Positions 11,971 to 44,303 of a DNA stretch of 64,000 nt are shown in pieces. Numbering within the stretch: position 1 is the first letter of the stretch; every line of letters begins with the position of its first letter. The translations under genes and the position numbers were made by a program. The notes under the pieces were generated by a model. The model was not told where the DNA came from and searched no databases. It was given only the letters and a program-made list of their open reading frames with translations. This DNA is from Nitrospirota bacterium (GTDB lineage Bacteria > Nitrospirota > Thermodesulfovibrionia > Thermodesulfovibrionales > JdFR-85), in NCBI GenBank assembly GCA_035873375.1, contig JAYWMQ010000007.1:1-64000 (forward strand), written 5' to 3'.

Positions 11971-13061
11971 GGGGTACTGCTTCCCGTAAAGATTCTGACA
12001 AAGTCATTATAGAGTGCGAATGCCATAAGAAGCAGTAGAAGCGCAAGGCCTATCTTTTGAGTAACAGCAATTGTCCTTTCACTGAGGGGTTTTCCCTTAA
12101 TCCCCTCTATCACAAACATGACGATGTGACCTCCATCAAGGATCGGAACCGGCAGGAGATTAAGGACACCAAGGTTTACACTCAACAATGCCATAAACAT
12201 GAAATAGGTCAGGAGGCCTGCAGAGGCTGCCTTCCCCGATTCCTGCAAAATAGTCACAGGACCGCTTATGTTCTTTAGAGACACCTGTCTCGTTATCAAC
12301 ATTTTGATGGAGTCTACAACAAAAAATCCCATCTTATAAGTGGCTGTCACGCCCTTGACCGGAGCTTCAAGAACTGAATCACTCTGAATGGACTCAAAAA
12401 AACCTCCTCCGAGTTTTTTGACCCCGATTCTTCCTATAACTACCTTTTTCCCGCCAGGGTCTACTTCTTCAACAGACTGAGGAACAATTTTAAGGTCTAA
12501 CAGTTTCCCATCCCTTTTTACAACAAAATCAAGTTTCTTCCCCGGGTTCTTGACAACAATATTCACCATATCAAACCAGGTATCAATCCTCTTGCTATCA
12601 ATCTTCACTATTACATCCCCGGCTTTCAGGCCTGCCTCAGAAGCCGGATAACCCTCCTGCACCTCATCTATAACAGGCAGGATGTTGCTCAGTACAGGGA
12701 CATTAACAGGAAGTCCTGTTGAAAGCACCGCGGTGAAGATTATATAGGTCAGGAATATATTAAACACAGGTCCGGCAAGAACGATCAGGATTCTTTTTGT
12801 AACACTTTGCTGATTAAAAGCCCTCGCCTTATCAGCCTCGTCAAGTTCCTCACCTGCTTCCTCGCCGAGCATCTTTACATAACCGCCGAGGGGAACGGCA
12901 GAGAGCATGTACTCTGTCTCACCTATCTGTTTGCCTATCACTTTTGGTCCAAAACCAAGTGAAAACTTCAGGACCTTTACACCTGAAAACTTGGCCACAA
13001 GAAAATGGCCGAGTTCATGCACAAAAATAAGAATTCCCAAAAGTATTATTGCTGATAGAAT
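11967..13061 (-). CDS. rseP: Site-2 zinc metalloprotease RseP, proposed AUU start
   Basis: This inner-membrane intramembrane protease typically cleaves anti-sigma factors. It has HELGH at residues 15-19 of the proposed protein, one PDZ domain (about residues 115-200) and the C-terminal LNLLPVPILDGGH motif that provides the third zinc ligand. The first conventional codon is a TTG at 13040, which would start inside the first helix and has no ribosome site. AAAGGAGG (13068-13075) lies 6 bases before an in-frame ATT at 13059-13061, giving the usual N-terminal helix MLSAIILLGILIF. No ATG, GTG or TTG occurs between that codon and the upstream stop. I therefore favour AUU initiation. It is followed by ybgC with a 4-base overlap. 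Confidence 0.92.
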   Translation of the reverse strand: MLSAIILLGILIFVHELGHFLVAKFSGVKVLKFSLGFGPKVIGKQIGETEYMLSAVPLGGYVKMLGEEAGEELDEADKARAFNQQSVTKRILIVLAGPVFNIFLTYIIFTAVLSTGLPVNVPVLSNILPVIDEVQEGYPASEAGLKAGDVIVKIDSKRIDTWFDMVNIVVKNPGKKLDFVVKRDGKLLDLKIVPQSVEEVDPGGKKVVIGRIGVKKLGGGFFESIQSDSVLEAPVKGVTATYKMGFFVVDSIKMLITRQVSLKNISGPVTILQESGKAASAGLLTYFMFMALLSVNLGVLNLLPVPILDGGHIVMFVIEGIKGKPLSERTIAVTQKIGLALLLLLMAFALYNDFVRIFTGSSTP

Positions 13062-42379: not shown

Positions 42380-44017
42380 CTAACCCATGGCCTTTGCCAA
42401 CTTATCACTCCACAGATACCCCTCAATTGACTCAAGGAGGGGCAGAAATGTTCTGTTGTCCATGGCTGAGACAGCTATTGCCCCATACCTGTTGCAAAGG
42501 TTGTTAATCTCCTCCACCGGAACTCTGTCAATCTTGTTAAAGACCAGCAACCTGTGCTTGCCGGAGAGTCCCAATTCATCCATCAGCCTCTCAACGGACT
42601 CTATGTGCTGCTCAAACCTGTCACTCGATGCATCAACAAGGTGGATAAGGAGGTCTGCATCCTCAAGCTCTTCAAGGGTCGACCTGAATGCAGTCATAAG
42701 GTCTTTGGGAAGGTCTCTTATGAACCCGACCGTATCTGTAATTATAACTTCCCGCTCCTTTGGAAACCTCAATCTCCGGCTTGCAGTGTCGAGCGTGGCA
42801 AACATCCTCTTTTCAGTGAATGTCCTGCTGTTGGTAAGGTTATTCAGCAGGGTGGACTTGCCGGCATTTGTATATCCGATAATAGAGACTATCGGAATGT
42901 CTCTCTCGATCCTGCGGTGTTTTCGCTGCTTTCTTGCCTCGGAGAGTTTTTTCAGCTCCCGCTCAAGCAGGTGTATCCTGTCACGCACCCTTCGTCTGTC
43001 TATCTCAAGCTTCATCTCACCAGGTCCTCTTCCGCCGATGCCACCTGTAAGACGGCTCATGGCAGTACCCTTACCGGAGAGTCTCGGCAACCTGTATTTC
43101 AGTTGTGCAAGCTCCACCTGCACCTTACCGTCACGGCTGTGGGCCCTTCTGGCAAAGATGTCGAGGATGAGCTGGGAACGGTCTATAACCTTCAGTTCCG
43201 TAAGTTCCGTTATCGCCTTCATCTGTGAGGGAGAAAGGTCCTGGTCAAATATCAGAAGCGTTGCACTTTTTGTAAGGGCATCGATTATCAGGTCTTTCAG
43301 CTTACCGGTCCCCATAAGGTAACGGGGGTTTATCTCCTTCAGTCTCTGGATGATTGAACCGAGGACCAGGACATCAGCAGATCCGGCTAATTCACTCAGC
43401 TCCTCAATGGATTCCTCCTGCTCATACCTTGGCCTTGCTGAAGCACTTATGAGGATCGCCCTTTCCCTCGGGTCATCCTGTGATATGAGATTGCGGCGCT
43501 CCATCTCCTCTTCAATCGCACGGACAGAGGGCAGGAAATCAAACCGGAAAGAGTGAAAACTCTGAGGGGCCAGTACTTCATAGGGTTTGCCATCTCCATC
43601 AGGTAGCAGATAAGCAACATAGACCCTGTCAGGAAGCGCACCCTTTATACTTATTGCAGCAATCATATCGAGCCTCAGGAGGGCAAGGTCTGTGAGATCG
43701 TCCTGGTTGAGTGGTTCATCCCTGAGGTGCGTATGGATGAGCCTCATCCCCCGCAGGGACTTTCTACCAAGGGGATAATCACTCAGGTCAGGGATATAAA
43801 GACCCCGTGCATCTCCAACAATGACATGCGTTACTACCCCCGACCTTGTAACAAGAATCCCTATCTGCCGCCCGATCCCCTCTGATAGCCCGGTTATAAA
43901 CCTTGCAACCTCAGGGGTAACGATCTTCTCTGAAGGGATGCGTCTTCTGTATATCCGCTCAATGGCGTTTATATCCTGTTTCTTTAATCCTGATAAATTA
44001 CCGTAAACCGTTGCTAT
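42380..44017 (-). CDS. hflX: GTPase HflX (long form), proposed AUA start
   Basis: This 545-residue ribosome-splitting GTPase has the G domain [24 protein letters not shown] and NKID, and the HflX-specific domain with GTGKLKDLI and [12 protein letters not shown]. The first ordinary start (ATG 43747) would omit about 90 residues that match long HflX proteins ([20 protein letters not shown], then [15 protein letters not shown]). Upstream to the stop (44030-44032) there is no in-frame ATG, GTG or TTG. AGGAGG (44025-44030) lies 7 bases before ATA at 44015-44017, so I propose AUA initiation. It precedes ahbD by 11 bases. Confidence 0.92.
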
Positions 44018-44161
44018 ATGCGTTCCTCCTTATTGTTACTGACTAAACTCATTTTTACTGCAGTAAATCCAAAAAACACCACAGTAATTATGGTTATTAT
44101 ATTTTAACACAAAATATCTCTCCATCTCCCAAGGTTACCGATTAAAAACCCGTCAACTCCT

Positions 44162-44303
44162 GGGAACAGACATGGATACAGAGTTTGAACGGGTTTAATT
44201 ATCACTTTTGCATCACCCGGATGGTGATGCGTGATAATTACCTCGGAGACAGACAGGATGTCTGTCGAGAATGAGTGAAAATTCTGTGTCCATGTCTGTT
44301 CCC
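44162..44303. repeat. Composite palindromic element with nested hairpins
   Basis: The outer arms GGGAACAGACATGG... (44162-44182) and their complement (44283-44303) match at 20 of 21 positions. Inside are a hairpin with AATTATCAC/GTGATAATT (44197-44205, 44231-44239) enclosing GCATCACC/GGTGATGC (44210-44217, 44223-44230), and GACAGACA/TGTCTGTC (44248-44255, 44259-44266). CTCTCCATCT words flank it. It occupies the 316-base gap between hflX and the kinase; no gene is seen there. Confidence 0.85.

Follow-up and report, generated by a model that had tools for sequence, protein, structure and literature searches.

At which codon does translation of hflX begin in the 64,000-nucleotide stretch of DNA analysed here (the window)? 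A listing of open reading frames from ATG gives the gene as 42380-43747. Read along the minus strand, the sequence runs TAAGGAGG, seven bases, ATA and GCA ACG GTT TAC GGT, and this frame stays open as far as a stop codon ending at 42380 (Table 1). The first in-frame ATG, GTG or TTG past the ATA (these three codons are called canonical below, and AUA, AUC and AUU collectively AUH) is the ATG at 43747, 90 codons downstream. A preliminary description of this DNA had proposed an AUA start for hflX, pointing to AGGAGG 7 bases before the ATA and to about 90 residues upstream of ATG 43747 without any canonical codon. Both the motif and the ATA are present in the sequence, and the canonical codons are absent as described. 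An in-frame stop had been placed further up; it exists, and it lies closer than implied, with only the codons GGA GGA ACG CAT between the TAA and the ATA. The product scores 437 bits against TIGR03156 (curated cut-off 216.75) and thus belongs to the HflX GTPases. The comparisons described below strongly support the ATA at 44017-44015 as the only plausible start of hflX, and they assign to the gene the arrangement typical of infC, a start other than AUG, GUG or UUG with a Shine-Dalgarno sequence (SD) at normal spacing.

Table 1. Positions of hflX, its start region and the rseP start in the window.
Feature	Position	Strand	Remarks
hflX	42380..44017	(-)	545 codons from the ATA onward; predicted JAB/MPN-like domain at the N-terminus, followed by HflX GTPase
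hflX AUA start codon	44015..44017	(-)	from sequence; AUH at the same position in 137/148 distinct 5' ends
hflX SD AGGAGG	44025..44030	(-)	7 nt (44024-44018) before AUA; fuller stretch 44032-44025
In-frame stop TAA	44030..44032	(-)	shares bases with the hflX SD; excludes an upstream start in the hflX frame
First in-frame ATG of hflX	43745..43747	(-)	rejected as start; Met in 3 of 108 aligned rows, counting that of the window (a further 40 rows lack coverage)
TATAAT-like -10 box, possible promoter	44096..44101	(-)	1 found, 0.9 expected in shuffles
rseP AUU start	13059..13061	(-)	ATT after SD AAGGAGGT 13074-13067; AUU within the genus only

The extended N-terminus and the hflX leader

The 89 codons between the ATA and ATG 43747 are, judged by their codon-position bias, coding. 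In comparisons with five relatives, substitutions in these codons concentrate at codon position 3 (13/20, 40/56, 50/65, 55/87 and 52/104; in two of the five, positions 1/2/3 account for 11/5/40 and 12/3/50), and the 60 nt upstream of the ATA show substitutions without phase in the four more distant relatives. AlphaFold modelled residues 1-175 with a mean pLDDT of 87.7 and a pTM of 0.86 (the full-length model is weaker, with 74.3 and 0.54, respectively). Residues 1-66 are predicted to be a folded half of one domain, pLDDT reaching 91-96 over residues 11-70, and ATG 43747 encodes the residue at which the next predicted beta strand (residues 90-96) begins, so that a start there would halve the N-terminal domain. 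Translation from ATG 43747, leaving the upstream 90 codons untranslated, would agree with its being the first in-frame canonical codon and with the location of the Pfam HflX domains (GTP-bdg_N, GTP-bdg_M and MMR_HSR1), which lie wholly downstream of it. This alternative is nevertheless extremely unlikely in view of the rarity of Met at this position (Table 1), the codon-position bias upstream and the predicted fold.

The first approximately 175 residues (window 43490-44014, minus strand) form a domain without a Pfam match, and the HflX structures matched by sequence align from residue 166 or later and lack it. The top fold matches of the N-terminal model are JAB1/MPN/JAMM proteins, with CSN5 first (E 1.6e-3) and none below 0.001. 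Residues H94, H96, D106 and D109 are invariant; they do not follow the exact JAMM spacing. Going by the model, a metalloprotease-like domain on a ribosome-splitting GTPase is possible.

The predicted RNA structure of the hflX leader is not more stable than expected (z -0.02). Coupling to a leader ORF was considered and rejected: a 12-codon out-of-frame ORF with ATG (44052 onward) ends in a TAG that overlaps the AUA, and it is not conserved, its frame stopping early in locus L010. Overlapping out-of-frame ORFs with ATG occur upstream of hflX in 32 of the 137 AUH loci. Directly upstream of the gene lies a palindromic dispersed repeat (window 44146-44296, minus strand) with 25-nt arms that are 92% complementary; it has 29 matches in the source genome, itself included, and is MITE- or REP-like.

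Conservation of the start codon across Nitrospirota

The source organism belongs to Nitrospirota. HflX was sought in 61 genomes, the source genome and 60 relatives, all of which contain a match at E 1e-3; the matches listed for two of them (G008 and G033) are weak GTPase matches without a true hflX. A phylum search at E 1e-60 gave HflX matches in 106 of 118 genomes, of which 30 came with loci and 40 of the remainder were also taken for 5' ends. Together, 171 hflX loci were collected; 4 are cut by contig edges, and the 167 aligned loci comprise 148 distinct 5' ends once 90-nt stretches that are identical have been merged and near-identical ones kept separate. At the start position these have ATA (64), ATC (47), ATT (26), ATG (9), GTG (1) or TTG (1), which amounts to AUH in 137 and canonical codons in 11 of the 148. 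The single TTG case (L021) is ambiguous, as is L031, which was scored as ATC; both belong to one genus. None of the 28 loci that reach the N-terminus among L009-L038 (n=30) has ATG at this position, and 78 of the 80 named loci (L039-L118) reach it, with 74 AUH and 4 ATG. By the tool's family codes, which the named loci do not carry, 22 groups contribute a distinct 5' end, and AUH starts are present in 20 of them. In families f14 (1 locus) and f15 (4 loci) every hflX start is canonical; f1 and f17 contain both kinds.

Thus, in nearly the whole phylum hflX apparently starts with AUA, AUC or AUU, and the AUH start is, as far as this comparison of sequences can tell, a trait of the gene across Nitrospirota and not of the source organism. 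The proposal that the gene starts at AUA is thereby strongly supported. A sequencing error or a local mutation of ATG would require only a single base change (44015), and the genomes are mostly metagenome assemblies; the relatives refute this explanation, which can be practically dismissed, since AUH recurs among the distinct 5' ends of many assemblies. In 131 of 146 cases the start is followed by Ala, Pro or Ser. A starter Met is normally removed before these residues, so that the starter Met of HflX would mostly be lost.

Could the AUH codon be a conserved internal Ile codon? This was rejected, because in 108 of the 137 AUH loci the open frame upstream contains no canonical codon. An upstream in-frame start was rejected as well: in the other 29 loci, which do have such a codon, an SD of >=5 precedes it in none. 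An SD-like 5-mer lies 2-10 nt upstream in 133/137 AUH cases as opposed to 2/11 canonical cases (Fisher p 5e-10, the rows not being independent). On a FastTree phylogeny of 108 full-length HflX proteins, built with the start codon left out, a minimum of 27 start-codon changes was counted, just 3 of them between AUH and canonical codons, a pattern that marks the start as kept non-canonical by selection in the manner of infC. ATA and ATG are one transition apart, and the rarity of this step argues for selection against AUG. AUA makes up 63% of 102 AUH starts, compared with 38% of 4926 Ile codons in the same genes. Taken at the level of sequence, the conservation of AUH points to a retained translational brake rather than to a sequencing slip or to one organism's sloppy start choice.

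In four loci (L106, L109, L114 and L116, of which L114 is from Magnetominusculus) hflX starts with an ATG that lacks an SD and is preceded, at a distance of about 6 nt, by a TAAAAT-like box. Their hflX mRNA may be leaderless, a putative replacement of the AUH/SD arrangement.

Start selection in the source organism

The preliminary description had counted two near-cognate starts in the window, hflX and rseP, and had taken them as a sign of relaxed start selection in this organism. Both codons are indeed there, the ATA of hflX and the ATT of rseP. However, the AUU of rseP is confined to the genus: it occurs in 5 of 29 loci, all from genus members (5/5 in the genus), and the other 24 have canonical starts. 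The genome was scanned for further non-canonical starts behind strong SDs in 20 stretches of 400 kb in total plus the window (464 kb, 17% of the genome), with 309 ORFs defined by a codon-usage rule. Under the scan rule (SD >=5 and no canonical codon upstream), which misses AUH starts that have a chance canonical codon upstream, AUH starts were found in 2 of the 309 ORFs, hflX and rseP only, and are thus not common. Other non-canonical codons flagged by the scan look like noise, with the exception of ksgA, whose real start is the adjoining CTG. Inspection of IF3 gave a single-copy infC gene with 215.7 bits against a family cut-off of 60; at the level of this score IF3 is neither altered nor missing, and nothing suggests a broken discriminator in the source genome.

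By a uniform rule, 24 of 30 ksgA loci are canonical, 3 have CTG and 3 are mixed or unclear. Within the genus, an apparent CTG start after TAAGGAG is present in 3 of 4 loci (L289, L285 and L288; L289 is the source genome, G000, at C43:20909), and L283 has TTG. The AUU of rseP and the CUG of ksgA indicate that odd starts in the genus are not limited to factors acting on ribosomal subunits, and they would fit an organism-wide relaxation of start selection. This reading is nevertheless very unlikely, as AUH starts are so few among the sampled ORFs, the one IF3 gene scores well over its cut-off, and the hflX start is phylum-wide whereas rseP is mostly canonical.

As a known IF3-controlled gene, infC is both a positive control for hflX and its companion. 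It has AUH in 30/30 order-level loci (25 assigned by rule, 2 of them ATC, plus 5 ATA assigned by eye) and in 17/20 phylum-level loci (one by eye), the rest being two ATG (L309 and L310) and one unclear case (L305). In family f15, infC stays AUC while hflX has ATG or GTG; the pairing of the two genes is thus not obligatory.

Known non-canonical starts and a possible role of IF3

Earlier work describes repression by IF3 of infC, which starts with ATT in Escherichia coli and ATC in Streptomyces, and of sigR with its GTC start (PMC5472188). In Staphylococcus aureus, infC starts with AUA, and the non-canonical starts of ccpN and cvfC1 are conserved and preceded by extended SDs (PMC13009471). An AUU start is also known for pcnB of E. 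coli and has been suggested for lepA in Borrelia and B. licheniformis (PMC1780047). As in infC, the AUH codon of hflX stands behind a strong SD, is conserved in the same genomes and belongs to a gene whose product acts on ribosomal subunits. In contrast to hflX, which would be a target, infC encodes the discriminator itself and forms a direct autoregulatory loop. With Streptomyces sigR (PMC5472188), hflX shares a non-canonical start in a gene other than infC, for which annotation picks the wrong canonical codon; sigR differs in having GTC and in encoding a stress sigma factor. With ccpN (AUA) and cvfC1 (AUU) it shares the conserved start and the extended SD. IF3 repression of sigR is experimental and the starts of ccpN and cvfC1 were demonstrated by ribosome profiling and reporters, whereas that of hflX is proposed from sequence comparison. 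The ccpN start is described (PMC13009471) as common to two genera (S. aureus and B. subtilis), while that of hflX spans a phylum with exchange among AUA, AUC and AUU. The AUU starts of pcnB and lepA, the latter coding for a translational GTPase, resemble what is proposed for hflX in limiting expression, but they are isolated cases in few genomes (PMC1780047).

Outside the phylum, ten annotated hflX genes from plasmid or chromid records have annotated ATG, GTG or TTG starts, 9 of them plausible. Among these ten only Fusobacterium has the long N-terminus, and both Fusobacterium loci start with ATG. In Ilyobacter polytropus (L261 near 1069) the annotated GTG lies inside an SD-like GAGGTGA, and an ATT nine bases later is better placed; as a lead only, this hflX may hide an AUU start. 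No HflX was found in the viral contigs searched. A literature search of titles, abstracts and passages retrieved no paper on the hflX start codon; arXiv 2008.10758, on genes preferring non-AUG starts, may list hflX. The best reading of the comparison is that hflX would be a new and unusually deep case in the known class of IF3-discriminated start codons.

We consider it likely that hflX has an infC-type, IF3-sensitive AUH start that selection on a ribosome-splitting factor has maintained. This proposal builds on what the comparison reveals, namely the start position, its conservation in the phylum, the exchange among AUA, AUC and AUU with almost no escape to AUG, and the AUH start of infC. The initiator tRNA would start hflX at the near-cognate codon (AUA here), held by the strong SD, and IF3, by rejecting P-site mismatches at the third base, would keep HflX synthesis low. 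HflX synthesis would then be tied to the level of free IF3, as infC is to its own product. IF3 has been described as an anti-association factor that acts on freed 30S subunits, and HflX as splitting stalled 70S ribosomes (PMC9067457). With HflX splitting 70S ribosomes and IF3 keeping the freed 30S subunits apart, both genes would answer to one signal, the ratio of IF3 to free 30S. From the published repression of non-canonical starts by IF3 and these subunit roles, we infer the IF3 step, by which hflX would be IF3-controlled or at least throttled.

Alternatively, the AUH start may be real but act as a fixed throttle, the weak start keeping HflX scarce with no response to the IF3 level. This would fit the same sequence data equally well, including the strong SDs that accompany AUH, and has likewise been proposed for pcnB; weak hflX starts also occur elsewhere (TTG in E. 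coli, GTG in Listeria and Xanthomonas). However, AUH is kept specifically, and not GUG or UUG, which are weak yet not rejected by IF3. We regard a fixed throttle as unlikely, although by no means negligible. An extension of the IF3-sensitive start, which we put forward tentatively and with some doubt, is that hflX and infC form an IF3-read regulon across Nitrospirota, in which free IF3 relative to 30S would set both syntheses via AUH starts.

To our knowledge, very few bacterial genes are established to start with a codon other than AUG, GUG or UUG. Gene callers are blind to such starts, and hflX in Nitrospirota would be shortened, by 90 codons in this case. A simple screen for a conserved N-terminus, a strong SD and no canonical codon could reveal more of them. 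Across a phylum, this start has been exchanged freely among AUA, AUC and AUU and hardly ever for AUG, which strongly indicates that non-canonical initiation is itself under selection. With hflX, the possible control of a ribosome-rescue factor by IF3 can be put to a direct test. If the regulon is real, it would couple the anti-association factor with the 70S-splitting factor in a subunit-homeostasis circuit that consists solely of start codons and has lasted as long as the phylum.
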